From: Acidihalobacter prosperus
GTDB lineage: Bacteria; Pseudomonadota; Gammaproteobacteria; DSM-5130; Acidihalobacteraceae
Length of the DNA: 64,000 nt
Direction of reading: 5' to 3'
Assembly: GCF_000754095.2 (NCBI RefSeq)
Contig: NZ_JQSG02000006.1
Coordinates: 45,650-109,649 of the forward strand
Below are positions 6,902 through 24,826 of the stretch, one piece after another. The notes beneath the pieces were generated by a model. That model made no database searches and was not told where the DNA came from. It saw nothing but the letters and a program-made list of their open reading frames with translations. Position 1 is the first letter of the stretch; each line of letters starts with the position of its first letter. The translations under genes and the position numbers were made by a program.

Positions 6902-8707
6902 TCAGGTTCCGACTGCGTGCAGATACGCGCGCCAGCCGCCGTAGGCGGTGATGTCTTCGCTGTTGACCAGGGCGTGCGGCTCGCACAGGAAGCCCTGTAC
7001 CCACTCGCCGTCTTCCAACTCCACGGAACCGATGCACAGCGGCGATGGAATTTCGCGCAGGAAGCCGCCGAACTCGCCGGTGGGCAGCGACCAGACCTCG
7101 ACCTCGATGGCGTCGCCGGCACCGGAAGGCAGGCTGCGCACCAGGCCGGGCTTGCGCGGATGCGTACCACGCAAGGCGTAGAGACGATAGGCGCGCGCGG
7201 TCTGGCAGCGCCGCTGCAGTCGGGCGCCGCGCGCGGTGAGCTGGTGGTTGAGCGGTTGACCACTCAGGTGCGCGCCGACCACCGCCAGGCGGATGTCGTC
7301 CTGCTCATCGATTGCCGAGACCTTGGGTAGACGCTCGCCCAGGAAGCGCGCGGCGAGCATCATCACGTCACGATCCGCCAATGCCGGCGCGACCAGGGAC
7401 AGGCCGAAGGGCATGCCGTCGGCGCGATGACCGGCGGGAATCGCGATGGCGCACTGATCGAGCAGATTGACGAACTGGGTGTAGTAACCCAATTCCCGGT
7501 TGGCTGTCATCGGGTCTGCCTCCACGGCGGCACGCATGACCTGTGTGCCGATGGTCGGCGTGATCAAAACATCGATGCGCGCCATTTCCGCTTCCGCCTC
7601 GCGCCGCAGAGCGGCAAGCCGATACTGCGCGACAAAGGTATCGGCCGCGTCATACGCCAGGCCTTCCTCCAGGATTCTCCGGGTAACCGGCAGCAAGGCC
7701 TGCGGGCGTTGGTGCAGGAAGCGACCGACCGCGGCCAGCCTTTCGGCCACCCAGGGTCCTTCGTAGAGCAGGCTGCCGGCGTTTAGGAAGGGCGTGAAAT
7801 CGATTTCGATGCGTTGCCCGCCCATGGCCTGCAGCTGCGCGACGGCCGATTCGAACAAGTGTTGGCTTTCGGCGTCTTCGAAGAATCGCAGGCGCTCGTC
7901 GGACGGGACGCCGAAGCGGAAACCGCCGGCGGCGAGCGCACGGCGACCGGGCCGTAGCGTTTCATATCGGCTGAGCGGGTCGCGCGGGTCCGGCCCCAGG
8001 GCGATTTCCAGCACCGTGCCGGCATCGGCCACACACTGGGCGAATATCGCCACGCAGTCCAGCGAACGGCAGGCCGGCACCACGCCGGCGGTGCTGAGCA
8101 GGCCGCGCGTCGGCTTGAGACCGACGATGCCATTGCACGCGGCCGGCACGCGCCCGGAACCGGCGGTGTCGGTGCCGAGCGAGAAGCTGACGAGATCGCA
8201 GGCCACCGCGACCGCCGAGCCGGAACTCGACCCGCCCGAGACGTAGGCCGGGTCGACGGCGTTGTCGCAAGCGCCGTAGGGCGAGCGCGTGCCGACGAGG
8301 CCGGTGGCGAACTGGTCCATGTTGGTCTTGCCGATCAGCATCGCGCCGGCCGCCTCCAGGCGCGCCACCACGGTGGCCGTGCGCGAGGCGGTGTAGGCGA
8401 ATTCCGGGCAGCCGGCGGTGGTCGGATAGCTCGCGACGTCGATGTTGTCCTTGACCGCGAACGGGATGCCGAAGAGCGGCAGTTCGGCGCGCTGCGCGGC
8501 GCTCATCGCACCCAACGCGCGGGCGCGCAGCAGCAGATCGTCGTGGGGCAGCAGGTCCACCCAGACGTGCTGCGCGGTGCACGCCTCGATGCGCCCCAGC
8601 ACCTCGCGCAGCACCTCTTCGGGCGTCGCGCCCTCATCCGCGTAGCGCCGGCGCAGGTGCGCGAGATTCAACGTCCCCGCCATGCCCACTTCCGCATCCC
8701 TGCGCAT
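6902..8707 (-). CDS. atzF: Allophanate hydrolase (AtzF type)
   Basis: 601 residues, the usual AtzF length. The N-terminal amidase-signature domain has the Lys-cisSer-Ser triad: K86 (FAVKDNID), S160 (SGGSSSGSA) and S184 (TAGSGRVPA). The C-terminal ~130 residues carry the allophanate hydrolase C-domain (LAVVGAHLSGQPLNHQL, then YRLYALRGTHPRKPGLVR). It hydrolyses allophanate to ammonia and CO2 in two domain-separated steps, the last reaction of cyanurate, biuret and urea-carboxylase pathways. No urea carboxylase gene is present in the window. The start ATG follows TGAGGA, which is both the stop of the upstream deaminase gene and its Shine-Dalgarno sequence. It is in the leftward operon with the ABC importer. 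Confidence 0.92.
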   Translation of the reverse strand: MRRDAEVGMAGTLNLAHLRRRYADEGATPEEVLREVLGRIEACTAQHVWVDLLPHDDLLLRARALGAMSAAQRAELPLFGIPFAVKDNIDVASYPTTAGCPEFAYTASRTATVVARLEAAGAMLIGKTNMDQFATGLVGTRSPYGACDNAVDPAYVSGGSSSGSAVAVACDLVSFSLGTDTAGSGRVPAACNGIVGLKPTRGLLSTAGVVPACRSLDCVAIFAQCVADAGTVLEIALGPDPRDPLSRYETLRPGRRALAAGGFRFGVPSDERLRFFEDAESQHLFESAVAQLQAMGGQRIEIDFTPFLNAGSLLYEGPWVAERLAAVGRFLHQRPQALLPVTRRILEEGLAYDAADTFVAQYRLAALRREAEAEMARIDVLITPTIGTQVMRAAVEADPMTANRELGYYTQFVNLLDQCAIAIPAGHRADGMPFGLSLVAPALADRDVMMLAARFLGERLPKVSAIDEQDDIRLAVVGAHLSGQPLNHQLTARGARLQRRCQTARAYRLYALRGTHPRKPGLVRSLPSGAGDAIEVEVWSLPTGEFGGFLREIPSPLCIGSVELEDGEWVQGFLCEPHALVNSEDITAYGGWRAYLHAVGT

Positions 8708-8718
8708 CGACGAAGTCC

Positions 8719-9732
<1,014 letters not shown>

Positions 9733-9760
9733 CTATGTTTGATGCGGTGACGGGACGGGT

Positions 9761-10879
9761 TCAGCTCGACTGCCCCTCGACCCCCTTGACGAACCATTGC
9801 AGGCCAAGCAGGTCATTATCCGTCAACGTCTTGCCGGCAGGCACCTTCAGCGTGCCCTTCTGGTCGTACAACGGCCCCTTGAAGATCGCAAAACTGCCAT
9901 CCTCGATGGCCTTCTTGCGCTTGTACACGAGATCGGCGACGGGCTTGGGGATTGCCGGGTTGAGCGGCGCGAGCTGCACCATGCCGGACTTGAGGCCGCC
10001 CCACACCGAGCCGGACTTCCACTTGCCCTCGAGTACCTTGCGCGCGGTTTCGTAGTAATAGGGCGCCCAGTCGTCGACCACACCCGTCAGCTGCGCGTGC
10101 GGGCCGTACTGCTTCTGGTCGGAATCCTGGCAGAAGGCGTAGATACCCTTGCTCTCGGCCACCTGCATCGGCGCCGGGGAATCGGTATGCGTGGCGATCA
10201 CGTCGCAGCCGGAAGCAGCCAGGGTCAGCGCAGCCTCGCGCTCCTTGGACGGGTCGTACCAGGTGTTCACCCACACGGTCTTGACCGTGGCCTTGGGGTT
10301 GGTTTCGTGCAAGCCAATGGTGAAGGCGTCGACCACGCGGTACACCTCGGGGATCGGGAACGGCAGGATGAAGCCGATCTTGTCGGTCTTGGTCATCGCG
10401 CCCGCGACCAGCCCGGTGAGGTACTGCGCCTCGTAGAAACGTCCGTTGTAGTTGCCCATGTTCGGCGCGGTCTTGAAGCCGGTGGCCTGCTCGAAGATCA
10501 CGTGCGGGAATTCCTTGGCGACCTTGAGCGTGGGGTCCATGTAGCCGAAGGAGGTGGTGAAGATCAGCTGATGCCCGGTCTGCGCCAGACGGCGGATCAC
10601 CGGCTCCGACTTGGCCTCGGCAACGTCGGCCACGTAGTTGGACACGACCTTGCCGGCGAGCATCTTGTCCATGTACTTGCGGCCGAGTTCGTGCTGATAG
10701 GTCCAGCCGATGTCGCCGATCGGATCGACGTAGACGAAACCGACCTTGAGCGGCTTCTTCAGCGGAATGCGGTAGTACTCGCTGGCCATGCTGCGCCCCG
10801 GCAGACCACCCAGGGCGCCGGCCGCGGCCAGGGCGCCCATGCCCTTGAGGAAATCACGACGTGAACTCATCTTTGCCAT
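9761..10879 (-). CDS. BMP-family (NupA/TmpC-like) ABC transporter substrate-binding protein, Tat-exported
   Basis: 372 residues. The N-terminus has a twin-arginine signal (SSRRDFLKGMGALAAAG), so it is probably exported folded. The mature part begins near SEYYRIPLKKPLKVGFVY and has the periplasmic BMP fold (VGFVYVDPIGDIGWTYQHE, GFILPFPIPEVYRVVDAF, GCDVIATHTDSPAPMQVAE). BMP proteins bind purine or pyrimidine nucleosides and related compounds. It is encoded directly downstream of two permeases and a double ATPase of the matching transporter class. A Tat signal on a BMP protein is less common than a Sec or lipoprotein signal. The ligand is inferred as a nucleobase or nucleoside from neighbours. 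Confidence 0.88.
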   Translation of the reverse strand: MAKMSSRRDFLKGMGALAAAGALGGLPGRSMASEYYRIPLKKPLKVGFVYVDPIGDIGWTYQHELGRKYMDKMLAGKVVSNYVADVAEAKSEPVIRRLAQTGHQLIFTTSFGYMDPTLKVAKEFPHVIFEQATGFKTAPNMGNYNGRFYEAQYLTGLVAGAMTKTDKIGFILPFPIPEVYRVVDAFTIGLHETNPKATVKTVWVNTWYDPSKEREAALTLAASGCDVIATHTDSPAPMQVAESKGIYAFCQDSDQKQYGPHAQLTGVVDDWAPYYYETARKVLEGKWKSGSVWGGLKSGMVQLAPLNPAIPKPVADLVYKRKKAIEDGSFAIFKGPLYDQKGTLKVPAGKTLTDNDLLGLQWFVKGVEGQSS

Positions 10880-10941
10880 CTCCTTGCGTGTGAAGATCGA
10901 ACGAACCCGACCGCGGGCGCATCAAGCCCACCCCGCCGCCT

Positions 10942-11868
10942 TCAGGACTCGGCCCTGAACGGGCGCCCGAGCGCGGCCGGCGTGTGCAGCCGGATGCGCA
11001 TCGGATCGCGCGAGATCAGAACCAGCGCCGTCAGCACGGCCAGATAGGGCAATGCCGACAGAAAATACGTGTTCACCTGCAGACCCGCCGCCTGCGAGAA
11101 CAGCTGGCCGATGCCGACGCCGGCGAACAGCCAGGCGCCGAGCAGCAGGCGCAGCGGACGCCAGGTGGCGAACACCACCAGGCCGACCGCGATCCAGCCT
11201 TGCCCCGCGACCATGCCCTGCGCCCACATCGGCGTGTACACCGTGGACAGGAAGGCGCCGCCGAGGCCCGCCATCGCACCGCCGAACAGCGCCGCGGCGT
11301 AGCGGATCGCGATCACCGGCAGGCCGAGACCGCGCGCCACCTGCGGGTCCTCGCCCACGCTCTTGAGCATCAGACCGCCGCGCGTCGCGCGCAGGTACCA
11401 GGCCAGCCCCAGCACCAGCAGGATCGCGAAGTACACCGGCAGGCTGTGATGGAACAGCACCGGGCCGAGCAGGGGTATGTGCTGCAGCAGCGGCACCGGC
11501 GCATCGCCGAGCGGATGGATCGATTTGCCGGCGTAAGGCTGGCCGACGAAGGCGCTCAGGCCGTGACCGAAGATGGTCAGCGCGAGCCCCGTGGCCACCT
11601 GATCGGCGGCGAGCTGCACGGTCAGCCAGGCGTAGATCAGCGCGCAGAACAGACCCGCCGCGGCACCGGCGAACAGCCCGACGACCGGGCTGCCGGTGTG
11701 GTAGGCGGCGATGAAGCCGGCCGCGGCGCCGACCGTCATCATGCCCTCGACGCCGAGGTTGAGCAGGCCCGCACGCTCGGTGACCAGTTCGCCGGCCGAG
11801 GCCAGCAGCAGCGGGGTGGCGGCCACCACCACGCTGCCCCCGATCGAGGTCCACAAGTCGAGGCTCAT
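10942..11868 (-). CDS. BMP-type ABC transporter permease, second subunit
   Basis: 308 residues from an ATG in the ATGA overlap with the first permease gene; the open frame extends further upstream only as a shadow of that gene. Hydrophobic throughout, with the NupQ/BranchPerm-type signatures LLLASAGELVTERAGLLNLG and EGMMTVGAAAGF and a cytoplasmic-loop coupling region SVGEDPQVARGLGL. It forms the membrane channel of the purine/nucleobase importer with the adjacent permease. Confidence 0.9.
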   Translation of the reverse strand: MSLDLWTSIGGSVVVAATPLLLASAGELVTERAGLLNLGVEGMMTVGAAAGFIAAYHTGSPVVGLFAGAAAGLFCALIYAWLTVQLAADQVATGLALTIFGHGLSAFVGQPYAGKSIHPLGDAPVPLLQHIPLLGPVLFHHSLPVYFAILLVLGLAWYLRATRGGLMLKSVGEDPQVARGLGLPVIAIRYAAALFGGAMAGLGGAFLSTVYTPMWAQGMVAGQGWIAVGLVVFATWRPLRLLLGAWLFAGVGIGQLFSQAAGLQVNTYFLSALPYLAVLTALVLISRDPMRIRLHTPAALGRPFRAES

Positions 11869-12926
11869 GCCGGCACCCGCCGCAGCCGGTAGCGCACCAG
11901 CACGTTGGCCGCGAGCAGGGTGAACAGCAGCACGCCCTGCAGCAGCTGGGTCAGCGCCACCGGCAGGCCCATGGTGATCTGGGCGTTGTCCGCGCCGACG
12001 TAGAACAGGCCGACCAGCAGGGCCGCCGGCAGCACGCCGAGCGGATTGAGCTGGCCGAGGTAGGCCACGATGATCGCGGCGAAGCCGATGTCCGAGTAGA
12101 TGTTCGGGCGCAGCTGGTCGATCGGCCCGGCCACCTGCAGGATGCCCGCCAGCCCCGCGCAGGCGCCGCTGAGCAGGAAGGCCTGCCACACCGTGCGCCC
12201 GCGGCTGAAGCCCGCGTAGCGCGCGGCCGGCGCGCTGGCCGAGACGCGCACCTGGAAACCGAACAGCGACCCGCGCAGCAGCAGCCACACCAGCGGCGCC
12301 GCGAAGAAGGCGCACAGCGCGCCGAGGTCGAACTGCGTCTGCGGCCAGACGATCGGCAGGCTGGCCGCATCCGGAAACGAGATCGAACCGGGAAAGCCGT
12401 AGCTGTGCGGATCGCGCCAGGGACCGAAGGTGAGATAGCGCAGCAGGTACAGCGCCACGTAGTCCAGCATCAGGCTGGTGAGGATCTCGTTGGCGTTGAA
12501 GCGCGTGTTGAGCAGCGCCGGGATCGCGCCGTAGGCGGCACCGCCGACGGCGCCGAGCAGCACCATCGCCGGCAGCAGCCAGGCGCTGGTGGCGTCCGGG
12601 TGATACACGATCAGCGAGCTGCCGAGCACCGCGCCGATCACGTACTGGCCCTGCGCGCCGATGTTCCACACCCGGGCGCGGTAGGCGACCACCAGCCCCG
12701 CGCCGATGAGCGCGAGCGGCGCCGCCTTGACCAGCACGTCGGACCAGCCGGACGCGCTGCCGAAGGGCGCCAGGAACAGTGCGTAGAAACCGCCGAGCGG
12801 GGGATGTCCGGAGGCTGCGAGCACCGCGAAGGCAACCAGTGCGGTGCCGCCCACCGCGAGCAGCGGCGCGGCGAACTGCATGCGGGTGGAAGGCCGCGCG
12901 CGCGCCTGCAGTCTAAGCCGCAGCAT
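11865..12926 (-). CDS. BMP-type ABC transporter permease, first subunit
   Basis: 353 residues with about eight to ten hydrophobic segments. Family signatures include LIGAGLVVAYRARVWNIGAQGQYVIG and the ALLNTRFNANEILTSLMLDY segment. It overlaps the ATPase gene by 14 bp upstream and the second permease gene by four bases downstream, so translation of the transporter subunits is coupled. An internal ATG 15 codons on is an alternative start. Confidence 0.9.
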   Translation of the reverse strand: MLRLRLQARARPSTRMQFAAPLLAVGGTALVAFAVLAASGHPPLGGFYALFLAPFGSASGWSDVLVKAAPLALIGAGLVVAYRARVWNIGAQGQYVIGAVLGSSLIVYHPDATSAWLLPAMVLLGAVGGAAYGAIPALLNTRFNANEILTSLMLDYVALYLLRYLTFGPWRDPHSYGFPGSISFPDAASLPIVWPQTQFDLGALCAFFAAPLVWLLLRGSLFGFQVRVSASAPAARYAGFSRGRTVWQAFLLSGACAGLAGILQVAGPIDQLRPNIYSDIGFAAIIVAYLGQLNPLGVLPAALLVGLFYVGADNAQITMGLPVALTQLLQGVLLFTLLAANVLVRYRLRRVPA

Positions 12927-14490
12927 CGGGCACCTCCGCTTCCAGGCCGCGACCGCCCATCAGCTGACCGAGCTGCGCGCGGCCGACTTCGGCCACCGGC
13001 CGCGCCGACGACACCCGTCCGCCGCTGATCACCGCCACGCGGTCGGCCAGGGCGAGCAGTTCGTCGAGGTCGTCGGAGATTACCAGCAGGGCCGTACCCT
13101 GCTCGCGCAGCGCGAGCAGGGCGTCCTGAATGCGCCGCGCCGCAGCGACGTCGACGCCCCAGGTGGGCTGCGCGACGACGAAGATCTCCGGGGTCTCGTC
13201 CAGCTCGCGGCCGACGATGAATTTCTGCAGGTTGCCGCCCGACAGCGAGGACGCCGGCATGCCGACGCCGGCCTGGCGCACCTGATAGCGTTCGCAGATC
13301 GCCTGCGCCCAGTTCCGCGCCGCCGCCAGCGACACCCAGCCGAAGCGCGTCGCCTTCGGCCAGCGCGTGAGCAGGGCGTTGTCGATCAAAGAGAGGCTGG
13401 GCACGGCGCCGGTGCCCTGACGATCCTCCGGCACGTAACGCAGTCCGCGCCGGCGGCGTTCGGCCACGCCCATCCGCCCCACCGGTTCGCCGTCGATCAG
13501 CACGCAGTCGGCCGGCACCGGGCGCTCGCCCACCAGCGCGGCGAGCAGTTCCTGCTGGCCGTTGCCCGAAACCCCGGCCAGCCCCAGGATCTCGCCGCGC
13601 CTGAGCTCCAGGGAAGCCCGACTCAGCGCGGTGCCGTGCGGATGGTCGGGCGCGAGATCGAGCCCCTGCAGCGCCAGGCGGACCTCGCCGGCGCCGGCCA
13701 CCGCGCGACGCTCGCGCAGGGCCGGCGGGCGGTCGCCGACCATCAGCGTGGCCAGCTCGTCCACCGTCACGTCCGCCATGTCGCGGCGCGCGACCACCCT
13801 GCCGCCGCGCAGCACGGTGACGCGCTCGCACAGCGCCTTGACCTCGTCGAGCTTGTGGCTGACGAACAGGATGCTCAGCCCCTGCGCGGCAAGCCGGCGC
13901 AGCACCTCGAACAGCCCGGCCACTTCCTGCGGCGTGAGCACCGCGGTCGGCTCGTCGAGAATCAACAGCTTGAGCGGCTCCTCCTGCAGCAGGCAGCGCA
14001 GGATCTCGACCCGCTGGCGCTGCCCGACCGACAGGCTGTGCACCGGCCGGTGCGGCTCGACCGCCAGACCGTAGCGGCCTTCCGCCTCGGCCACGCGTGC
14101 GGCCACGCGCTCGGGCTCCCAGCGTCCGCGCCGATTGAGCGTGAGCGCCAGATTCTCGGCCACGGTGAGACTTTCGAGCAGGGAAAAGTGCTGCTGCACC
14201 ATGCCCATGCCGAGGCGACGCGCATGCAGCGGCCCCTCGATCACGGTCTCGCGGCCTTCCCAGAGGATCGAACCCTCGTCGGGTGCGAGCAGGCCGTAGA
14301 TCATCTTCATCAGCGTGCTCTTGCCGGCGCCGTTCTCGCCCAGCAGGGCATGAATCTCGCCGGCGCGGACGCTCACGTCGACCCGGTCGTTGGCGACCAC
14401 ACCCGGAAACCGTTTGGTCAGACCGAGCAAAGCAAGCCGGGCATCGCGCCTCGGCGCCGGCACGGCCATGGAAGAATCGTGGGCAGTCAT
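12913..14490 (-). CDS. BMP-type ABC transporter double ATP-binding protein
   Basis: 525 residues with two fused nucleotide-binding domains, as in sugar and nucleoside importers. Domain 1 has Walker A GENGAGKST, signature LSVGQRQRVEI and Walker B LLILDEPT. Domain 2 has a degenerate Walker A (GVSGNGQQELL), signature LSGGNLQKFIVG and VVAQPTWGVD in place of Walker B, a degeneracy usual for this class. It is the first gene of the leftward operon, preceded by a sigma-54-like promoter and an operator-like dyad. Confidence 0.92.
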   Translation of the reverse strand: MTAHDSSMAVPAPRRDARLALLGLTKRFPGVVANDRVDVSVRAGEIHALLGENGAGKSTLMKMIYGLLAPDEGSILWEGRETVIEGPLHARRLGMGMVQQHFSLLESLTVAENLALTLNRRGRWEPERVAARVAEAEGRYGLAVEPHRPVHSLSVGQRQRVEILRCLLQEEPLKLLILDEPTAVLTPQEVAGLFEVLRRLAAQGLSILFVSHKLDEVKALCERVTVLRGGRVVARRDMADVTVDELATLMVGDRPPALRERRAVAGAGEVRLALQGLDLAPDHPHGTALSRASLELRRGEILGLAGVSGNGQQELLAALVGERPVPADCVLIDGEPVGRMGVAERRRRGLRYVPEDRQGTGAVPSLSLIDNALLTRWPKATRFGWVSLAAARNWAQAICERYQVRQAGVGMPASSLSGGNLQKFIVGRELDETPEIFVVAQPTWGVDVAAARRIQDALLALREQGTALLVISDDLDELLALADRVAVISGGRVSSARPVAEVGRAQLGQLMGGRGLEAEVPDAAA

Positions 14491-14523
14491 GAGCTGGTCG
14501 GTCGACTCGATCCGTCATTCTTA

Positions 14524-14541
14524 TGCATACAACGATGCATG
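14524..14541. promoter_or_regulatory. Operator-like dyad, left copy (TGCATACAACGATGCATG)
   Basis: The 18-bp sequence has TGCAT arms on both sides and differs at only two positions from the copy at 14816-14833. It lies 34 bp upstream of the ATPase start codon and about 20-35 bp downstream of the transcription start predicted from the -24/-12 element, a repressor-like position. The half-site resembles sites of GntR-type regulators, but no regulator gene lies beside it. Confidence 0.6.
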
Positions 14542-14570
14542 TATTCACGATTGATGCCAGCGTGCAGTCC

Positions 14571-14585
14571 GCAACCGTTCTGCCA
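14571..14585 (-). promoter_or_regulatory. Sigma-54 type -24/-12 promoter for the transporter operon
   Basis: Read on the minus strand the sequence is TGGCAGAACGGTTGC. It has GG and GC exactly ten bases apart, a TTGC -12 element and a TGGCA -24 element (consensus TGGCACG-N4-TTGCW). The predicted start is near 14559, followed by the left operator and the ATPase gene. Confidence 0.6.
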
Positions 14586-14702
14586 TGGAGGGTGCTCGCG
14601 GCGCCTGCAGTGAACGCAAGATTCGGACCGCCTCGGATGCGCCGGACCAACCGCCGCGCACGGCCACGACTCGCTCGCCTACAGTGCCATTTCGGCGCGC
14701 AC

Positions 14703-14717
14703 GCACTTTTTTGGTGC
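14703..14717. promoter_or_regulatory. NtrC-like enhancer site between the divergent promoters
   Basis: GCACTTTTTTGGTGC keeps the half-sites and 15-bp length of the classical NtrC site (GCACCA-N3-TGGTGC), with two mismatches in the left arm. It lies 83 bp from the -24 element of the rightward promoter and 118 bp from that of the leftward one, in the normal enhancer range for both. It can also form a short hairpin, but the position favours an activator site. Confidence 0.5.
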
Positions 14718-14799
14718 GAGCAGCCCGCCCCGCTTGCGCCATCTCCAAACCACCCATGGCTGGCCCAAGCCCTGCATGGAGCGGATAGACACATCCCAG

Positions 14800-14815
14800 T
14801 GGCACGCATTCTGCT
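14800..14815 (+). promoter_or_regulatory. Sigma-54 type -24/-12 promoter for the molybdenum hydroxylase operon
   Basis: TGGCACG-CATT-CTGCT matches the sigma-54 consensus perfectly at -24 and with one mismatch at -12; GG and GC are ten bases apart. The predicted start near 14826 falls inside the right operator copy, about 50 bp before the GTG start at 14878. Confidence 0.68.
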
Positions 14816-14833
14816 TGCATACATCGTTGCATG
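14816..14833. promoter_or_regulatory. Operator-like dyad, right copy (TGCATACATCGTTGCATG)
   Basis: This copy matches the left one at 16 of 18 positions. It directly abuts the -12 element of the rightward promoter and covers the predicted transcription start, as expected for a repressor operator. Two conserved copies at two divergent promoters argue for a specific regulator shared by both operons. Confidence 0.62.
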
Positions 14834-14877
14834 ACCATTGGCGCAGCCGGACGCGCATTGCAGGGAGAGGCGGCAAC

Positions 14878-17121
14878 GTGAGCGACACCCTCGGCACCAG
14901 CCCGATACGCGTGGATGCGGACGACAAGCTCGCCGGCCGCACGCGCTACGTGGACGACATCGTCTATCCGGACATGCTCCACGCCGCGACCCTGCGCACC
15001 TGCCATCCGGGCGGCAGGCTGGGCGGCATCTGCCTCGATCCCGACCGCGACTGGTCCGAATTCGTGATCGTGACCGCCGCCGACGTTCCTGGCGCCAACT
15101 GCGTCAAGGCCATCGCTGAAGACCAGCCGGTGCTCGCCGCCGGCGAATACCGCCATGCCGCCGAGCCGGTGGCGCTGATCGCCCACCCCGACCGCGCACG
15201 CCTGGCCGAGGCGCTGGCGCATATCGAAGTGATCGAAACGCCGGGACCGGAACCGCTGTTCGACGCGGACGAGGCACTGGCCTCGTCGCGGCGCATCGTG
15301 CCGGACAACGTCTTCACCGATTACACCCTGGCCAAGGGCGACCTCGCCGAGGGCGAGCGCCAGGCCGCCGCGGTGGTCGAGGGCACCTTCCGCACCGGCG
15401 CGCAGGAGCATGTCTACATCGAGCCGCAGGGCATGATCGGGCGCCTGATGCCCGACGGCGAACTGCGCATCGAGGGCTCGATGCAGTGCCCTTATTACGT
15501 GCTCGACGCCCTGGTGCACGCCACCGGCCTGCCGGCCGAGCGCATCCGCGTCGTGCAGACGGCCACCGGCGGCGGTTTCGGCGGCAAGGAAGAATACCCC
15601 TCGATGATCGCCTGCCACGTCGCCCTGCTCGCGCTCAAGGCGGGCGGGCGCCCGGTGAAGATGATCTACGACCGCGGCGAGGACATGCGCGCCACGCCCA
15701 AGCGCCACCCCTCGCGCAGCCGCGTGCGCGTCGGCGCCGACGCCGACGGCCGGCTGTGTCTGATCGATTTCGACTTCGCGCTCGACGGCGGCGCCTACAC
15801 CACGCTCAGCCCGGTGGTGCTGTCGCGCGGCGTGATCCACGCCCCCGGCCCCTACCGCTGCGAGCACGTTCGCGTGCGCGGCCGCGCGGTGGCCACCAAC
15901 CACCCGCCCTTCGGCGCCTTCCGCGGCTTCGGCGCGCCGCAGAGCATCTTCGCCCTGGAAGCGGCGCTCGATCGTCTGGCCGAACGGCTGGGGCTCGACC
16001 CCGCCGAACTGCGCCGGCGCAACCTGCTCGCGCCGGGCGACCGCTCGGCCACCGGCCAGCTCGCGGGCGACGACGCGGTCGCCGACGCCGTGCTCGCACA
16101 GGCGCTCGCGGAAAGCGACTACGTCCAGCGGCGCGCCGCGCACGAGGCCTGGAACCGCGCCGGCCACCGCACGCGCCGCGGCATCGGCCTCGCCACCTTC
16201 TGCCACGGCTCAGGCTTCACCGGCAACGGCGAGGTCAACCTGCGCTCCAGGGCCGGCCTGCGCGTCACCGCGGACGGCGTCGTCGAGCTGCTGAGCTCCA
16301 GCACCGAGATCGGCCAGGGCATGGCCACCACCTTCACCCAGATCGCGGCCGACGCGCTGCATCTGCCGATCGCCCGCGTCCGCGTCGCGCCGACCGACAC
16401 CCAGGTGGTGCCGAATTCCGGCCCCACGGTGGCCTCGCGCACCTGCATGGTCGTCGGACGCCTGATCCAGGATGCCGCCCGCACGATGATCGAGCGGCTG
16501 AGCGCCGAGGCCGGCCTGCCCGGGCAATACGACGAGGCCGCCTTCGCCGCGGCCTGCGCCCGCCTGCACGCCGCCGGCGGGAATACCGTCGAGATCGCAC
16601 AGTACCGTGCACCTGCCGGGGTCGAATGGGACGACCAACACTTCCGCGGCGCAGCCTATGCCAGCTACGCCTGGGCCGCCTACATCGCCGACATCGAGAT
16701 CGATCTCGATACCCTCGCCGTGAATGTGCGGGATTTCGTCGCCGTGCAGGAGATCGGCCGCGCGGTGCATCCGGTGATCGCCGCCGGTCAGATCGAGGGC
16801 GGCGTCGCCCAAGGCATCGGCCTCGCGCTGTTCGAGGATGTGGTGTGGAACGACGCCGGGGTGATGACCAACGACCGCATCACCCACTACATCCTGCCGA
16901 CCAGCGCCGACCTGCCGCCGATCCGCGTCTTCTTCCAGGAAACCGCCGACGCCCCCGGCCCCGGCGGCGCCAAGGGCATCGGCGAGCTGCCGATGGACGG
17001 CCCCGCGCCGGCGGTGGCCAATGCCGTCCGCCACGCCCTCGGCGTAGACATCGATGCCGTGCCGATCCTGCCCGAACACCTACTCGCAAAGCTCACGACC
17101 GACCACAAGGATGTCGCATGA
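14878..17121 (+). CDS. Molybdenum hydroxylase large (molybdopterin-binding) subunit, xanthine dehydrogenase type
   Basis: 747 residues from the GTG at 14878, chosen because GGGAGAGG lies 8 bp upstream and SDTLGTSPIRVDADDKLAGR is the usual start of this subunit. Molybdopterin motifs are present: GGGFGGKE, GAFRGFGAPQ and a C-terminal GAKGIGELP. E238, R317 and F351 align by motif and spacing with the bovine xanthine oxidase substrate-binding residues Glu802, Arg880 and Phe914, and E703 with the catalytic Glu1261. The first two are replaced in aldehyde oxidases, so a purine- or pyrimidine-like substrate is favoured. It needs the 2Fe-2S and FAD subunits encoded downstream. Start of the rightward operon, overlapping the next gene by ATGA. 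Confidence 0.9.
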   Translation: MSDTLGTSPIRVDADDKLAGRTRYVDDIVYPDMLHAATLRTCHPGGRLGGICLDPDRDWSEFVIVTAADVPGANCVKAIAEDQPVLAAGEYRHAAEPVALIAHPDRARLAEALAHIEVIETPGPEPLFDADEALASSRRIVPDNVFTDYTLAKGDLAEGERQAAAVVEGTFRTGAQEHVYIEPQGMIGRLMPDGELRIEGSMQCPYYVLDALVHATGLPAERIRVVQTATGGGFGGKEEYPSMIACHVALLALKAGGRPVKMIYDRGEDMRATPKRHPSRSRVRVGADADGRLCLIDFDFALDGGAYTTLSPVVLSRGVIHAPGPYRCEHVRVRGRAVATNHPPFGAFRGFGAPQSIFALEAALDRLAERLGLDPAELRRRNLLAPGDRSATGQLAGDDAVADAVLAQALAESDYVQRRAAHEAWNRAGHRTRRGIGLATFCHGSGFTGNGEVNLRSRAGLRVTADGVVELLSSSTEIGQGMATTFTQIAADALHLPIARVRVAPTDTQVVPNSGPTVASRTCMVVGRLIQDAARTMIERLSAEAGLPGQYDEAAFAAACARLHAAGGNTVEIAQYRAPAGVEWDDQHFRGAAYASYAWAAYIADIEIDLDTLAVNVRDFVAVQEIGRAVHPVIAAGQIEGGVAQGIGLALFEDVVWNDAGVMTNDRITHYILPTSADLPPIRVFFQETADAPGPGGAKGIGELPMDGPAPAVANAVRHALGVDIDAVPILPEHLLAKLTTDHKDVA

Positions 17122-18134
17122 AACGCCTGCTTACCCGACTGCTTCTCGGCCTGCTGCTGGTCGCTCCCGGCGCCTTCGCCGCGATCCCGGTCAAGGTGAT
17201 GGTACTTGCCGCCTTCCCGCCGGAACTCGCGCCCTGGCTCAAGCACATGAAACACCCGACCGAACTCAAGATCGCCGGCACCTACGCCCCGGTGTGGTGC
17301 GATGCCCGCCAGGTGTGCGTGACCGAAACCGGCGAGGCGCAGGTCAATTCCGCCACCACCGTCTCCGCCCTGCTCGCCAGCAGCCAGCTCGACATGACGC
17401 AGGCCCTGGTGCTGCGCGCCGGCATCGCCGGCGGCCCGCCCTGGGGGCAGGACACCCTGGGCGGCGCCTACTGGTCCGACTGGGTGATTTCCTGGGATCT
17501 CGGCCATCACCTCACGGCGATGTCGCACGGCCAGCCCGAACCGCGCTTCCTGCCGCTCGGCGACGACCAGCCGCCGCTCGGCACCGAGGCCTTCAAGCTC
17601 AATCCCTGGCTGGTCAATCTGGCCTTCGAGGTCACCCGCGAGATTCCGCTGGCCGACGACCTGCCGGCGATGAACAACCGCAAGCTCTACGCCGGGCAGG
17701 CCAACCGCCAGCCCCAGGTCGGCATCGGCGCGACCGTCACCGGCGACGACTTCTGGTCGGGCGTCGAGCTGTCGCGGCTCGCGCAGCAGATCGTCGACTA
17801 CTACACCCACGGTGCCGCGCGCTACGTGACCACCGCGATGGAGGAGACCGGCGACGCCGACGCCATGGCGCGGCGCGGCCTGCTCTCGCACTACCTCAGC
17901 CTGCGCACGATCAGCGACTTCGACCAGCCGCCGCCCGGCGAAACCGCCGCCGCCTGGCTGCTCGAACACAATTACCCCGGAGGCCGCATCGCCTTCGAGA
18001 ACGCCTACCGCGTCGGCAATGCCTTCGTCGATTATGTCCTGGCGCACCCGAAGCAGATCGCCCAGGCCATGCGCGCCGATCGCGTGCCCGCCACCCACTA
18101 CCCGCTGAGCGCGTCGGAGGCCATGGGCAAATGA
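17118..18134 (+). CDS. Exported purine nucleoside permease (NUP) family protein
   Basis: 338 residues with a Sec signal peptide (RLLLGLLLVAPGAFA, cleavage near residue 21). The mature protein matches the NUP family: VMVLAAFPPELAPWL, VCVTETGEAQVNSATTV, VLRAGIAGGPPWGQDTLGG, VSLR-like linkers and ATVTGDDFWSG, with YVTTAMEETGDA near the C-terminus. The family was named for a fungal nucleoside permease, but its fold is that of a nucleoside phosphorylase and there are no transmembrane helices here. A periplasmic nucleoside-cleaving or nucleoside-binding role is therefore plausible. Its position between molybdenum hydroxylase subunit genes ties it to nucleobase supply. Confidence 0.8.
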   Translation: MKRLLTRLLLGLLLVAPGAFAAIPVKVMVLAAFPPELAPWLKHMKHPTELKIAGTYAPVWCDARQVCVTETGEAQVNSATTVSALLASSQLDMTQALVLRAGIAGGPPWGQDTLGGAYWSDWVISWDLGHHLTAMSHGQPEPRFLPLGDDQPPLGTEAFKLNPWLVNLAFEVTREIPLADDLPAMNNRKLYAGQANRQPQVGIGATVTGDDFWSGVELSRLAQQIVDYYTHGAARYVTTAMEETGDADAMARRGLLSHYLSLRTISDFDQPPPGETAAAWLLEHNYPGGRIAFENAYRVGNAFVDYVLAHPKQIAQAMRADRVPATHYPLSASEAMGK

Positions 18135-18162
18135 CCACGCGCACACGTCAACGGAGCCGCCC

Positions 18163-18648
18163 ATGCACCTGCGCCTGACCGTCAACGATGCCCAGCACAG
18201 CGCCGCCTGCCGCCCGGACACCCGGCTGCTCGACTACCTGCGCGAAACTCTCGGCCTGACCGGGGCCAAGGAAGGCTGCGGCGAGGGCGAATGCGGCGCC
18301 TGCGCCGTGCTGATCGACGGCGTGCTGGCGAACAGCTGTCTGGTGCCCATGGGCCAGCTCGACGGCTGCCGCGTCCAGACCGTCGAGGGCGTTCCCGCCG
18401 AGTCGCCGCTGCGCCGCGCCTTCGCCGCGCACGGCGGCACCCAGTGCGGCATCTGCACGCCCGGCATGCTGATGGCGGCGACGGCGCTGCTCGCCGATCA
18501 CCCTCACCCCGACCTCGCCGATATCCGCGAGGGCCTCGCCGGCAACCTGTGCCGCTGCACCGGCTACACGCGCATCTATGCGGCCGTGGCCGCCGCCGCG
18601 GAGGAGACCGCCGCGCAGACTCGGGAGACGCACAGCCGTGTGGGCTAG
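18163..18648 (+). CDS. Molybdenum hydroxylase small (2Fe-2S) subunit
   Basis: 161 residues with both iron-sulphur clusters. The plant-ferredoxin type cluster uses C39, C44, C47 and C59 (GCGEGECGACAVL). The second uses C95, C98, C130 and C132 (TQCGICTPG and GNLCRCTGY). It passes electrons from the molybdenum centre to FAD. Its stop overlaps the GTG start of the FAD subunit. The ribosome site is ACGGAGCC before the ATG. Confidence 0.93.
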   Translation: MHLRLTVNDAQHSAACRPDTRLLDYLRETLGLTGAKEGCGEGECGACAVLIDGVLANSCLVPMGQLDGCRVQTVEGVPAESPLRRAFAAHGGTQCGICTPGMLMAATALLADHPHPDLADIREGLAGNLCRCTGYTRIYAAVAAAAEETAAQTRETHSRVG

Positions 18649-19501
18649 ACCGCGTACCCTCGCCGAGGCGATGCGCCTGCTCGGCGGCGATGCCGACGGG
18701 GCCTGGCGGATCATCGCCGGCGGCACGGACCTGATGGTCGAGCAGCGCCTCCATCCCGTCGCGGACGAACGCAACTGGCTCGACCTGACCGCCGTCGGCG
18801 AACTGTCCGGGCTCTACGCCAGCGACGGCGGCCTGCGCATCGGCGCCTGCGTGCCCCTGCGGCGCATCGCCCGCGATCCGCGGGTGCGCGAGCGCTACCC
18901 GCTGCTCGCCGCCACCGCGGCGGTGACCGGTGCGCTGCCGATCCAGAACCGCGCGACCCTGGGCGGCAACGTCGCCAACGCCTCCCCGGCCGCGGACAAC
19001 CCGCCCGCCCTGCTGGTCTACGACGCCGACATCGAGCTGGCCGGCCCCGAAGGCCGACGCCGCCTGCCCTACCGCGAGTTCCATACTGGCTACAAGCAGA
19101 CCCGGATGCGCGCGGACGAACTGATCGTCGCGCTCCATCTGCCGGCGCCCAAGCCGGGGTCAGCCATCGAGTTCTACCGCAAGGTCGGCACCCGGCAGGC
19201 GCAGGCCATCGCCAAGCTCAGCCTGGCCGCGCGCCTGCGCCTGGATGCCGCCGGCGCCGTGCACAGCGCCCGCTTCGGCCTCGCCAGCGTGGGCCCCGCG
19301 CCCGCCGCGCTGCCCGCCGTCGAGGACTGGCTGGTCGGCCAGCGCCCGGAGGCGGTCGACGCCGCGACCCTGCGCCGGCACCTCGCCCAGGACATCAGGC
19401 CCCTGGACGACATCCGCTCCACCGCCGCCTACCGGCTGGAGGTGGCCGCACGCCTGCTGCTGACCGCGCTGCGCACGCCGCCCGGCGCGCCGTCCGTCTG
19501 A
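18638..19501 (+). CDS. Molybdenum hydroxylase medium (FAD-binding) subunit
   Basis: 287 residues from a GTG at 18638 that overlaps the small-subunit stop; GGGAG lies upstream. Signatures are the FAD-binding IIAGGTDLMVE, the TLGGNVANASPAAD pyrophosphate-binding loop and a CO-dehydrogenase flavoprotein C-terminal domain (KVGTRQAQAIAKLSLAARL, then ARFGLASVGPAP). With the large and small subunits it makes a heterotrimeric (alpha-beta-gamma) xanthine dehydrogenase/CoxLMS-type hydroxylase. Confidence 0.92.
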   Translation: MWARPRTLAEAMRLLGGDADGAWRIIAGGTDLMVEQRLHPVADERNWLDLTAVGELSGLYASDGGLRIGACVPLRRIARDPRVRERYPLLAATAAVTGALPIQNRATLGGNVANASPAADNPPALLVYDADIELAGPEGRRRLPYREFHTGYKQTRMRADELIVALHLPAPKPGSAIEFYRKVGTRQAQAIAKLSLAARLRLDAAGAVHSARFGLASVGPAPAALPAVEDWLVGQRPEAVDAATLRRHLAQDIRPLDDIRSTAAYRLEVAARLLLTALRTPPGAPSV

Positions 19502-19530
19502 CAACGAAAAACGCAAGGAGGATTCCCGTC

Positions 19531-20109
19531 ATGTCGTCGCAAACCGCCGCACAACGCTACGTCGACGTCCCGCTGGTGGACGCCACGCCCGAGAACACCG
19601 CCGAATACGGCCTGATGATCGGCGACAGCGTGCTCAAGCCCGGCCTGCCCATCCCCTTCTACAAGGGCAGCGTGGAAGAGGGCCAGAACCTCGATTTCGT
19701 CTATCACGAGCGCGCCGTGGTGCGCACCGCGCGCATCTCCCATCGCAGCGCGGAAATCACCTGGCTGGAACGCCACCTGCGCATGACCCAGCTGTTCGTG
19801 GGCCTGGGCGACCAGCCCTTCGCGATGGTTCTCGGCAAGCCGAACCAGGACACCGGCGCCAGTCTGCCGGTGCTGGAGGACGTGGTCGCGTTCCGCATTC
19901 CGCCCGGCCACGGCATCATGATCCACGCCGGTACCTGGCACGATTTCCCGATGGCCTTCGAGAACCCGGTGACGGTGCTGACGATGAATTCCGAGGAAGT
20001 GGTCAAGGCCCTCGCCGAGGCCAAGACCGCCGACGACATGGACGCCGGCGACGTCTACAAGATCAACATCGAACGTCACACGGGCCGCGTCCTGCGGGTG
20101 CCGTTCTAG
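19531..20109 (+). CDS. Ureidoglycolate lyase (AllA) family protein
   Basis: 192 residues from an ATG preceded by AAGGAGG. The cupin-like ureidoglycolate lyase fold is indicated by RHLRMTQLFVGLGDQPF, VVAFRIPPGHGIMIHAGTWHDFPMAF and a C-terminal TGRVLRVPF. AllA converts ureidoglycolate to glyoxylate and urea, the last carbon-nitrogen cleavage of purine breakdown. No allantoinase, allantoicase or urate oxidase is in the window, so this member may act on another ureido acid, for example one formed by the ring-opening enzyme encoded next to it. The substrate is unproven. Confidence 0.75.
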   Translation: MSSQTAAQRYVDVPLVDATPENTAEYGLMIGDSVLKPGLPIPFYKGSVEEGQNLDFVYHERAVVRTARISHRSAEITWLERHLRMTQLFVGLGDQPFAMVLGKPNQDTGASLPVLEDVVAFRIPPGHGIMIHAGTWHDFPMAFENPVTVLTMNSEEVVKALAEAKTADDMDAGDVYKINIERHTGRVLRVPF

Positions 20110-20123
20110 ACCGGGACGCACGC

Positions 20124-21224
20124 ATGCGGATCATCGCCCACCGTGTGGCCACCGCCGGCCCCGGCGACGTCTCGGGCCTCGCCGCCCTGCTCGACGCCGG
20201 CGAACTGCGCGCGGATGAAATCCTCGCCGTGATCGGCAAGACCGAGGGCAACGGCGGGGTCAACGACTTCACCCGCGAACTGGCCACGCGGGCGCTGGGC
20301 GACCTGCTCGCGCCGCGCCTCGAATGTGCGCCGGAGGCCATCGAGGAGCGCATCGTGCTGTCCTTCTCGGGCGGCACCGAGGGCGTCGCAAGTCCGCACC
20401 TGCTGATCCTCTCGCGGCGCGGCGCGGCCCTGGCGGCACCGCGGACGTCCAAGCGCCTCGCCATCGCCACCGGCCATACCCGCGCCCTCGAACCCAGCGA
20501 GATCGGCTATCGGCCGATGATGGAAGAGACCGCGCGCGTGGTCCGTGAGCTGATGCGCGAACTCGCCGTCGACGACCCTTCCGACGTGCATCTGGTACAG
20601 ATCAAGGGCGCCATTCCTGGCTACGACGAGACCCAGCGGGTCGCCGCCGAGGCCGAGGGCCGGCCGCTGCGCTGCGACATGGTCGGCTCGCGCGCCGCTT
20701 CCGCGCTCGGGGTGGGCATCGCCCTGGGCGAGATCGATGACGCCGCGGCCGGGGATGACGCCGTGTGCCGCGACTGGTCGCTGTTCTCCACCCGCGCCAG
20801 TGTCTCGGCCAAGCCTGGGCTGCCCCGCTCCGAAATCACCCTGTTCGCCAACTCGGCGTGGTGGGACGGCGATCTCGTCATCGAGCATGGCGTGATGCGC
20901 GACATCATCGACCTCGACGCGATCCGCGACGTGCTCGCCCGCCTCGGCCTGACGGCACCCGGTCAGCTCGCCCCGGAACAGACCGCGCGCCTGGTCGGCA
21001 TCTTCGCCAAATCCGACGCCGACCCGCGCCACCGGATTCGCGGCCGCCGCCACACCATGTGGACCGACGCCGACATCTCCGACATGCGCTATTCGCGCTG
21101 CGTGGTGTCCGCCCTGCTTGCCGGCGTCACCGGCGAGACCGCCGTGTACGTCTCCACCCGCGCCGAGCATCACGGACCGCTCGGCGGCGGGCCGGTGGCG
21201 ATGATCGCAAGAGTCGACGCATGA
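20124..21224 (+). CDS. Ring-opening cyclic amide hydrolase (cyanuric acid amidohydrolase / barbiturase)
   Basis: 366 residues, typical of the AtzD/TrzD/barbiturase family, which has a threefold internal repeat and three Ser-Lys pairs. Visible motifs are IGKTEGNGGVNDFTR (K39), LSFSGGTEGVASPH (S82), QIKGAIPG (K161), TRASVSAKPG, GIFAKSDADPRH and the C-terminal YVSTRAEHHGPLGGGPVA. Members open cyanuric acid to 1-carboxybiuret or barbituric acid to ureidomalonate. Downstream atzG, atzE and atzH, a biuret hydrolase-like gene and atzF on the other strand favour cyanurate-type chemistry; the molybdenum hydroxylase genes favour barbiturate made from uracil. Sequence alone does not decide. Confidence 0.88.
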   Translation: MRIIAHRVATAGPGDVSGLAALLDAGELRADEILAVIGKTEGNGGVNDFTRELATRALGDLLAPRLECAPEAIEERIVLSFSGGTEGVASPHLLILSRRGAALAAPRTSKRLAIATGHTRALEPSEIGYRPMMEETARVVRELMRELAVDDPSDVHLVQIKGAIPGYDETQRVAAEAEGRPLRCDMVGSRAASALGVGIALGEIDDAAAGDDAVCRDWSLFSTRASVSAKPGLPRSEITLFANSAWWDGDLVIEHGVMRDIIDLDAIRDVLARLGLTAPGQLAPEQTARLVGIFAKSDADPRHRIRGRRHTMWTDADISDMRYSRCVVSALLAGVTGETAVYVSTRAEHHGPLGGGPVAMIARVDA

Positions 21225-22162
21225 GCGCCTCGCTGCATCCCGCCGCCGCCCCCGAACGGCCGCTGGCCGAGGCGCTGATCACCGAGGTGCGCGGTTCCGC
21301 GCCCGCGGCGGTCGGCGACGGCATGTGCCTGCTCGCGGACGGACGCTTCTCCGGCACGGTCGGCGGCGGACGCATGGAACACGCGCTGCAGGCCGCGCTG
21401 CGGGCCGATCCTCAGGTCGCGCGCGGCATCGACTTCACCCTGGGACACGGCACCGACCAGTGCTGCGGCGGGCGCGCGCAGGCGCACATCGTGCCCGTGC
21501 CGCCGCTGCTCGCCGCCCTGTACGCGCCGGGCGCCTCGCGCGTCTATGCGGTCGCCGACGGCCGTCTGCATCTGGCGGGCGGCATCACCGCCGAGGGGCG
21601 CGCGCTCGGCAGCGAGGCCCGTGCCGCACTCGCCGGCGCGGACGCGCCCGGCTACCTCGCCGACGGCAGCCGGTTCGTGCTGCCGGCACGTCGGCGCACG
21701 CCCCTGTGGCTGTTCGGCGCCGGCCACGTGGGACGCGCGGTGGCGCGCATCGCCACCGACCTCGACTACGCGGTGCGCGTGTTCGACGCCCGCCCCGAAT
21801 GGGCCGACCCGCTGGCCTTCCCGCCGGCGGCGCGAGTCAGCCTCACGATCGATCCCGCCGCCCTGCCCGAGGCGCCGGCCGACGCGGTGGTACTGATCAT
21901 GACGCACAGCCACACCCTGGACTTCGAACTGCTCGCCCATTTCGCCGCACGGCCGCTCGCCTACATCGGCGTCATCGCCAGCCGCTCCAAGGCGGCCCGC
22001 TTCCGCCACGCGCTCGAACGCGAGGGCCTCGCGCCGCGCGACCTGCACATGCCCATCGGCCTGCCCGGCCTCGGCAAGCGACCGGCCGAGATCGCGGTCA
22101 GCGTCATGGCCGAGCTGCTCGCCCTGCGCGCCGCCGCCGCGGAGGGCATTGCGCGGCCATGA
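21221..22162 (+). CDS. xdhC: XdhC-like molybdenum cofactor maturation protein
   Basis: 313 residues from an ATGA overlap with the amidohydrolase gene. The N-terminal CoxI/XdhC domain has ITEVRGSAPAAVGDGM and a GTVGGGRMEHAL segment followed by DQCCGGRAQAH. The C-terminal half is a Rossmann domain (LWLFGAGHVGRAVARIA, then PLAYIGVIASRSKAARF and GLPGLGKRPAEIAVSVMAELLAL). XdhC carries the cofactor, helps its sulphuration and inserts it into the large subunit of xanthine dehydrogenase-type enzymes. Its presence shows that the hydroxylase is a sulphido-molybdenum enzyme. It overlaps the next gene by ATGA. Confidence 0.9.
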   Translation: MSASLHPAAAPERPLAEALITEVRGSAPAAVGDGMCLLADGRFSGTVGGGRMEHALQAALRADPQVARGIDFTLGHGTDQCCGGRAQAHIVPVPPLLAALYAPGASRVYAVADGRLHLAGGITAEGRALGSEARAALAGADAPGYLADGSRFVLPARRRTPLWLFGAGHVGRAVARIATDLDYAVRVFDARPEWADPLAFPPAARVSLTIDPAALPEAPADAVVLIMTHSHTLDFELLAHFAARPLAYIGVIASRSKAARFRHALEREGLAPRDLHMPIGLPGLGKRPAEIAVSVMAELLALRAAAAEGIARP

Positions 22163-22854
22163 GCTTCGAAATCGACGCCCGTTCCTTTGCCTACCGCTGT
22201 CCAGCGGACGGCACTGCGCTGCTGCTGATCGATCTGCAGCGCGATTTCGTCGAGCCGGGCGGCTTCGGCGCCAGCCTGGGCAACGACGTCTCGCGCCTGC
22301 GGCCCGCGATCAAGGCCTGCCGCCGCCTGCTGGAGACCTTCCGCGCGCTCGGCCTGCCCGTGCTGCACACCCGCGAGGCGCACCGCCCGGACCTTGCCGA
22401 TTGTCCGCCCGCCAAGCGGCTGCGCGGCGAACCGCCGCTGCGCATCGGCGACGCGGGGCCGATGGGGCACCTGCTCGTCGCCGGCGAGACGGGCACCGAG
22501 ATCGTGCCCGAGTGCCGTCCGCTGCCGGGCGAGACCGTGATCGACAAGCCCGGCAAGGGCGCGTTCTACGCCACCGATTTCGGCACGCACCTGGAGCGCC
22601 TCGGCATCACCCATCTCGTGGTCGGCGGCGTCACCACCGAGGTCTGCGTGCAGAGCACCCTGCGCGAGGCCAACGACCGCGGCTACGAATGCTTGCTGGT
22701 CGAGGAGGCCACCGAAAGCTATTTCCCCGAATTCAAGCGCGCCACCCTCGAAATGGTGCGTGCGCAGGGGGCCATCGTCGGCTGGACCGCCGCGCTCGCC
22801 GACGTGCTCCGCGCGTTCGCCCCCCCTTTCCCTAAAGACCGGAGCCTGACATGA
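22159..22854 (+). CDS. Isochorismatase-family cysteine amidohydrolase, biuret hydrolase-like
   Basis: 231 residues. The Asp-Lys-Cys triad is D25 (LLIDLQRDF), K130 (IDKPGKGAF) and C163 (VTTEVCVQSTLREANDRGY), and the protein resembles rhizobial biuret hydrolase BiuH over most of its length (LHTREAHRPDLADCP, GEPPLRIGDAGPMGHLL). BiuH converts biuret to allophanate and ammonia. Biuret forms when carboxybiuret loses CO2 spontaneously, so this enzyme would rescue nitrogen that escapes the AtzE branch; its product feeds AtzF encoded in the opposite operon. A related ureidoacrylate or carbamoyl amidase role is the main alternative. Overlaps both neighbours by ATGA. Confidence 0.8.
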   Translation: MSFEIDARSFAYRCPADGTALLLIDLQRDFVEPGGFGASLGNDVSRLRPAIKACRRLLETFRALGLPVLHTREAHRPDLADCPPAKRLRGEPPLRIGDAGPMGHLLVAGETGTEIVPECRPLPGETVIDKPGKGAFYATDFGTHLERLGITHLVVGGVTTEVCVQSTLREANDRGYECLLVEEATESYFPEFKRATLEMVRAQGAIVGWTAALADVLRAFAPPFPKDRSLT

Positions 22855-24436: not shown

Positions 24437-24438
24437 AC

Positions 24439-24819: not shown

Positions 24820-24826
24820 GGCACGC

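Follow-up and report, generated by a model that had tools for sequence, protein, structure and literature searches.

Putative NtrC/sigma-54 activation and GntR/FCD repression at a divergent nitrogen-scavenging locus of Acidihalobacter prosperus

Gene content of the locus and genomes compared

The window, a stretch of 64,000 nucleotides (C6:45650-109649) in the 3.36-Mb genome of Acidihalobacter prosperus (G000), contains a 387-bp gap (14491-14877) that separates a left-hand operon for uptake from a divergent right-hand operon for breakdown. The first right-hand gene, xdhB (14878-17121, plus strand), encodes the large subunit of a xanthine dehydrogenase-like molybdenum hydroxylase, which scored below every equivalog cut-off listed. 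The remainder of this operon (17118-25414, plus) encodes a NUP family protein (17118-18134), a 2Fe-2S subunit below the equivalog cut-offs (18163-18648), a ureidoglycolate-lyase-like protein also below cut-offs (19531-20109), an AtzD/TrzD ring-opening amidohydrolase above the cyanuric acid amidohydrolase cut-off (20124-21224; 394 versus 360), an XdhC-like protein just below its cut-off (21218-22162; 152 versus 162), AtzE (23036-24436) and HpxZ (24433-24819). An FAD subunit, an isochorismatase-fold hydrolase and a MobA-like protein of the same operon were recognized by inspection only. On the minus strand, the first left-hand gene encodes an ABC-transporter ATPase (12913-14490). It is followed by genes (6902-12926) that gene order and strand suggest form a single operon, among them those for a Bmp/PnrA substrate-binding protein (9761-10879), an adenosine deaminase (8719-9723), an allophanate hydrolase (6902-8707) and, by inspection only, two permeases.

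Judged by its gene families, this set would be suited to recovering nitrogen from purines or related ring compounds. A preliminary description of the locus had proposed a nitrogen-scavenging role, which is supported by these families and by the NtrC/sigma-54 statistics at nitrogen genes presented below. The AtzD-type hydrolase is encoded inside a molybdenum-hydroxylase operon together with AtzE and HpxZ, with the allophanate hydrolase encoded divergently. Relatives of XdhB, the ureidoglycolate-lyase-like protein and the AtzD-like protein recur together in an Acidithiobacillus locus and in MAG loci, and this recurring set may mark an undescribed route. By inspection, an integrase-like gene (3815-4819, minus) lies near the left end of the locus.

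The locus was compared with those of a sister species (G002; XdhB 97% identical), a further genome (G004; 70%) and three MAG loci (L029, L030 and L086; 59-61%). In G001, from the same genus, XdhB had no match at E 1e-100. The A. prosperus genome encodes one RpoN as well as NtrC (L113:5882-7381), with a TIGR01818 score of 741 against a cut-off of 558.6. A search for the sigma-54 activator domain gave 15 matches, 12 of which were strong. Between A. prosperus and the sister species, the intergenic region shares three exact runs of at least 11 nt: 42 nt (14520-14561), 35 nt (14800-14834) and 15 nt (14616-14630). No run longer than 11 nt appeared in 100 shuffles of both intergenic sequences. The 42-nt run consists of a candidate operator (A) and a sigma-54-like flank, and the 35-nt run of a plus-strand promoter and a second candidate operator (B).

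A sigma-54 promoter before the breakdown operon

Upstream of xdhB, the string TGGCACGCATTCTGCT (14800-14815, plus) carries GG at 14801-14802 and GC at 14813-14814 with ten bases between them, as the preliminary description had reported, and places the predicted transcription start at 14826. The complete site (GTGGCACGCATTCTGCTTG, 14799-14817) was scored with a sigma-54 matrix of 19 columns built from 16 training sites, all outside the window, with nine MAG rows weighted one third each. At 23.85 bits it ranked first in the window (the runner-up scored 18.5 bits), and that score was reached at no position of a 2-Mb Markov-simulated strand. From 14800 onward the site is identical in the sister species, lying inside the 35-nt run, and counterparts precede xdhB in the three MAG loci and in G004 (L108:7563), so that it is kept in relatives of an organism that itself encodes rpoN.

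Bare consensus counts were dropped as evidence for sigma-54 sites. With up to one mismatch allowed, TGGCACGN4TTGC matched the genome 106 times and its reversed control 87 times, so little weight can be given to any single match. A second, weaker sigma-54-like site (CTGGCCCAAGCCCTGCATG, 14760-14778, plus; 10.05 bits) lies 39 bp upstream of the main one, and the similar sequence in the sister species scored 11.3 bits. Elsewhere in the window, the sigma-54-like site AAGGCACGAAACATGCTTG (44733-44715, minus; 18.5 bits) lies about 150 bp upstream of a gene (44565-42457) that by inspection encodes a membrane sensor resembling histidine kinases. No exact NtrC-like palindrome was found near that site, so another activator would be needed there.

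An NtrC-like enhancer and its pairing with sigma-54 sites

The preliminary description had also pointed to an NtrC-like string at 14703-14717. It is present as the exact palindrome GCACTTTTTTGGTGC, 83 bp upstream of the plus sigma-54 site. The 3.36-Mb genome contains 37 exact GCACYN5RGTGC palindromes, this one included (12 for the reversed-pattern control). For Pseudomonas, the NtrC consensus is quoted as GCACCA-N3-TGGTGC in PMC12977541. The equivalent in the sister species, TGCACTATATTGGGGCA, is one mismatch away from the palindrome.

Genome statistics indicate that the site is more than a chance match. Exact TGGCACGN5TGC sites number 18 in A. prosperus, and six of these have an exact NtrC-like palindrome 53-130 bp upstream, where 0.04 would be expected for the 200-bp search (Poisson P about 5e-12); on the downstream side, used as a control, there were none. 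The present pair, before xdhB, is one of the six. The others stand before a P-II gene with amtB after it (L109), a porin-like gene (L109:5185), a second porin-like gene before a urea-type ABC cluster (L110:11305), an ExbB/TolQ-like gene (L111), and a gene for an ABC substrate-binding protein that precedes a nirB-like gene (L112); the porin-like, urea-type and nirB labels were assigned by inspection. The ammonium transporter beside the P-II gene scored above its curated cut-off, and the P-II, ExbB/TolQ-like and substrate-binding proteins are family matches below theirs. The identical 15-mer GCACTTTTTTGGTGC recurs in a seventh place (L110), at an amino-acid-type ABC operon whose sigma-54 site, 120 bp away, has one mismatch. 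Further NtrC-like sites were found upstream of glnA and before the gene that precedes ntrC. A GCAC-N7-GTGC palindrome thus stands upstream of the sigma-54 site in a genome that encodes NtrC and carries the same class of site at known nitrogen genes, and we regard 14703-14717 as a putative NtrC site. The occurrence of two porin-like genes among the pairs suggests outer-membrane remodelling under nitrogen shortage.

Related arrangements were found in the more distant loci. Before xdhB in G004 there are a sigma-54 site (TGGCATGCATTCTGC, L108:7563) and an NtrC-like palindrome (GCACTGCAATGGTGC, L108:7331), with no operator palindrome. In all three MAG loci, one sigma-54 site precedes xdhB and another, facing the opposite way, precedes a cupin gene (so named in L029). 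The stretch between them holds two conserved NtrC-like blocks, separated by 32 bp and each off consensus at three of the 12 specified bases. NtrC/sigma-54 control of the right-hand breakdown operon is therefore supported by genome-wide pairing and by conservation. The claims made earlier for the plus promoter and the NtrC-like string both stand.

In A. prosperus, the ExbB/TolQ-like gene (L111:2038; C6:829538) has a sigma-54 site and an NtrC-like site, and in the MAG loci exbB has a sigma-54 site and an operator palindrome of the kind described next. A TonB-type energiser may possibly be under nitrogen control in both.

Paired palindromes at the predicted transcription starts

Two near-identical 16-bp palindromes (CATRCAWCGWTGYATG), overlooked by the preliminary description, follow the pattern CATRCA-N4-TGYATG and lie at 14526-14541 and 14818-14833. 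Candidate operator B (CATACATCGTTGCATG, 14818-14833) is identical in the sister species and is centred between -1 and +1 of the plus promoter. On the ABC-operon side, candidate operator A (CATACAACGATGCATG, 14526-14541) belongs to the 42-nt run (14520-14561) that is identical in the sister species. On both sides, the operator centre coincides with the predicted +1 (offset 0). A short ORF of 16 codons (14831-14881, plus) has its start within operator B and ends in a TGA that shares bases with the GTG initiation codon of xdhB. It could be a chance occurrence or a coupled leader; visual inspection of the alignment showed an ORF of similar size in the sister species. That species also has a third core palindrome, with one mismatch, in the same intergenic region (L120; G002:C1:577069-577082), beside a weaker sigma-54-like site.

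In the A. prosperus genome, the 16-mer has two perfect matches (both at this locus), none at one mismatch and ten at two, with two for the reversed control. Of the ten, one is the site beside gntR and a second overlaps the beginning of that gene's reading frame. Since the 16-mer was drawn from both window sites, its perfect match is partly circular, and the independent support for the operators consists of the gntR, MAG and G001 sites. The 14-bp core ATRCAWCGWTGYAT, with up to one mismatch, was found 6, 5, 7, 4 and 2 times in G000, G001, G002, G003 and G004 (reversed controls: 1, 0, 0, 2 and 0). Four of the G000 sites are exact: the two of this locus, the site adjoining gntR and a fourth at C3:38390. 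The last of these falls within an unrelated reading frame; the motif is therefore not exclusive. Neither of the two one-mismatch sites in G004 lies at its xdhB gene.

The three MAG genomes each contain the core twice (one mismatch allowed), against reversed controls of 1, 0 and 0, and all six sites fall in the xdhB locus. Every genome has one at xdhB and one some 7.6 kb downstream of it, both closely following a sigma-54 site. The left half-site of those at xdhB is imperfect (ACACA). Relative to +1, the operator centre is displaced downstream by 5 nt at MAG exbB and by 1 nt at MAG xdhB. With any N4 centre allowed, the core palindrome was found in the xdhB loci L024-L102 at the three MAG exbB sites and in one exact match (L064:1483). 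Inspection of 22 xdhB upstream regions located a sigma-54 site together with the palindrome only in the window locus, the sister species and the three MAGs. G004 has the sigma-54 site without the operator palindrome, and in most of the remaining regions another gene runs close to xdhB. The composite promoter pattern matched 11 of the 369 genomes of the class (reversed control, one genome), and the inverted half-site was present only in A. prosperus and the sister species. A wider spread was rejected, as the matches in the other nine genomes lack the inverted half-site and, from the matched strings, were judged to be due to chance.

A GntR/FCD regulator adjoining the same palindrome

In the MAG loci, a GntR/FCD gene (15330-16067 in L029) precedes the downstream core site, which is followed by exbB, exbD and a tonB-like gene. 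The A. prosperus orthologue (C6:130870-131535; 57% identity) is encoded about 21 kb beyond the window, and orthologues at 56% were found in G001 and G002. Both the GntR HTH and the FCD domain are present in the A. prosperus and L029 proteins. An exact core site lies 46-51 bp past the matched part of the gntR orthologues in G000, G001 and G002. In A. prosperus the gene after this site scored above the 8-oxoguanine deaminase cut-off (669 versus 532), and the corresponding reading frames of the other two genomes begin like it. No sigma-54 site was found at this deaminase gene in the three genomes, the best score near the operator being 1.8 bits, so the repressor would not be tied to sigma-54. A one-mismatch core site (ATGCAACATTCCAT) at the start of gntR in G000 and G002 fits autoregulation; there was none in the G001 stretch examined.

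A palindrome is thus common to the related promoters and the region adjoining the regulator gene. Because related palindromes accompany the same GntR/FCD gene in two lineages in which its neighbours differ, those at 14526-14541 and 14818-14833 are probably its operators. An alternative is that they are bound by another regulator, or by an activator, instead of a GntR/FCD repressor. The link to GntR is built on adjacency and conservation, which leaves room for such a protein; the different neighbouring operons of the two lineages, the site at the gntR start and the position on +1, which suits a blocker, all argue for the GntR/FCD protein, and we consider a different regulator unlikely. A LacI-type protein was considered because of the central CG of the palindrome and was rejected: at E 0.001, no LacI family match was found in G000, G001 or G002, and one was found in G004.

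Promoter of the uptake operon

The preliminary description had placed a second sigma-54 promoter on the minus strand at 14585-14571. The string (TGGCAGAACGGTTGC) exists and has the GG-N10-GC arrangement, but it scored -4.4 bits, lies outside the three conserved runs and is not conserved in the sister species, and we reject it. The best left-hand candidate is instead the sigma-54-like site TGGCATCAATCGTGAAT (14559-14543, minus), which has the highest minus-strand score in the region (8.3 bits), a predicted +1 at 14533 and full conservation in the sister species. It has the -24 element, and at -12 it reads GA, not GC, in both species; the missing GC would make it weak as a sigma-54 promoter. Its TGG lies 19 nt before the operator core, the same spacing as on the plus side, so the left operator would likewise be centred on the predicted +1. 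A score of 8.3 bits is not rare, being matched or exceeded at 16 positions of the window (both strands) and reached once in each of three unrelated upstream stretches. This candidate is argued from position and conservation; at one given position the chance of such a score is about 1e-4 (0.089 expected over 738 positions). The third conserved run (14616-14630, minus; CGGTCCGAATCTTGC), 15 nt identical in the sister species, also has GG-N10-GC and scored 3.0 bits; it could be a weaker alternative left-hand promoter or a site of another kind.

Upstream of other ABC operons, among them the orthologous ones of G003 and G004, the signals vary. In G004 there are a one-mismatch NtrC-like site and a 10.5-bit site without the -12 GC, which gives weak support. 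The ABC operon of G003 has neither an NtrC-like site nor a plausible sigma-54 site in front, and that of the distant G062 gave no support for NtrC/sigma-54 signals. A single enhancer may serve both operons, a possibility weakened by the missing -12 GC of the left-hand candidate and by the scant signals before the orthologous operons.

A two-layer model and its alternatives

We propose two-layer control of a shared nitrogen-scavenging control region, with activation by NtrC and sigma-54 and repression by a GntR/FCD regulator, the left-hand sigma factor being either sigma-54-like or sigma-70; on the sequence evidence we give this reading a probability of about 75%. Under nitrogen shortage, phosphorylated NtrC at 14703-14717 would loop to sigma-54 RNA polymerase and open the plus promoter. 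The GntR/FCD regulator (C6:130870-131535), sitting on +1, would block transcription until a purine-type inducer released it. The breakdown operon would then obey AND logic, being expressed when nitrogen is short and substrate is present. Less certainly, the uptake operon would be held by the same repressor at 14526-14541, acting on either the sigma-54-like promoter at 14559-14543 or a sigma-70 promoter overlapping operator A.

The second of these options, in which the right side uses NtrC and sigma-54 and the left a sigma-70 promoter under GntR control only, would make uptake respond to substrate and breakdown to substrate plus nitrogen. It would account for a conserved 42-nt run that spans operator A with its flanks and whose sigma-54-like part lacks the -12 GC, for the bare upstream region of the G003 ABC operon, and for the deaminase gene, where the operator occurs without a sigma-54 site. 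Against it stand a conserved TGGCAT at the same operator spacing as TGGCAC on the right and the low chance of 8.3 bits at one given position. We rate its prospects at somewhat less than even. A bolder form of the two-layer model, rather improbable as a whole, would be a symmetric AND gate, with GntR/FCD on the +1 of two sigma-54 promoters that share one NtrC enhancer, serving an undescribed purine route from the molybdenum hydroxylase through an AtzD-type enzyme to AtzE/HpxZ/AtzF-type steps.

The preliminary description had envisaged two sigma-54 promoters (14800 plus and 14585 minus) with one common NtrC site, and nitrogen limitation as the sole switch that turns on import and breakdown together. 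All three strings exist, and the three MAG relatives do have back-to-back sigma-54 sites flanking NtrC-like blocks, with a different left operon. Two of the three strings, the plus promoter and the NtrC-like site, hold, and pairing and conservation bear out activation on the right side; the minus promoter fails on score and conservation, and the two conserved palindromes go unexplained. The probable GntR/FCD operators to the left and right make nitrogen limitation by itself an incomplete account of how the two operons are switched on together, and we regard the earlier scheme as very improbable. That the sigma-54 and NtrC matches are mere coincidences in a GC-rich genome agrees with the bare consensus counts and holds for the site at 14585-14571, but has a negligible probability for the locus, being largely refuted on the plus side by pairing statistics, target genes and conservation.

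Comparison with known systems

In Pseudomonas sp. ADP, the cyanuric-acid genes of the atzR-atzDEF system are under nitrogen control, and a sigma-54/NtrC-dependent promoter lies in the divergent region, as is proposed here. That promoter drives the gene for a LysR-type regulator and not the catabolic operon, unlike the arrangement proposed for A. prosperus.

The closest precedent for the proposed control is Pseudomonas hutU, which combines a GntR-superfamily repressor with NtrBC and sigma-54: the region protected by HutC overlaps the sigma-54 site, and NtrBC directly activates the operon when the substrate serves as nitrogen source (PMC12977541). There the repressor is of the HutC subfamily, with the operator TGTA-N2-TACA, and the pathway is that of histidine. 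Here the candidate regulator belongs to the FCD subfamily, and the putative operator, ATRCA-N4-TGYAT, is centred on the predicted +1 at either end of the divergent region, in a molybdenum-hydroxylase/AtzD-type locus. In Burkholderia cenocepacia H111, NtrC and sigma-54 both target xanthine dehydrogenase and further genes of nitrogen scavenging, and their regulon includes xdhA/xdhB; the accessible text reports no local GntR operator, and a GntR-family gene is among the targets (PMC5491218). The hpx purine genes of Klebsiella oxytoca are putative NtrC targets (PMC8381380), and there too HpxZ is encoded in purine scavenging operons that are raised under nitrogen starvation; the present locus differs in its AtzD/TrzD-type ring-opening hydrolase and its ABC importer with a Bmp/PnrA-type binding protein. 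Among the open-licence matches listed (including PMC5491218, PMC12977541, PMC8381380, PMC4591121 and PMC4016543), as far as their accessible text extends, no purine promoter under NtrC/sigma-54 control is described as having a GntR operator. Dual control is itself of a known type; the present locus departs from these precedents in the FCD subfamily, in the operator and its position on +1, in the paired arrangement and in the pathway.

The analysis replaces the guess of a single switch with a two-input model that has a named candidate regulator, exact sites and predicted transcription starts. It would tie a little-studied gene set of purine/cyanurate type to the nitrogen regulon of the genus, and the operator motif offers a handle for locating the rest of the regulon.
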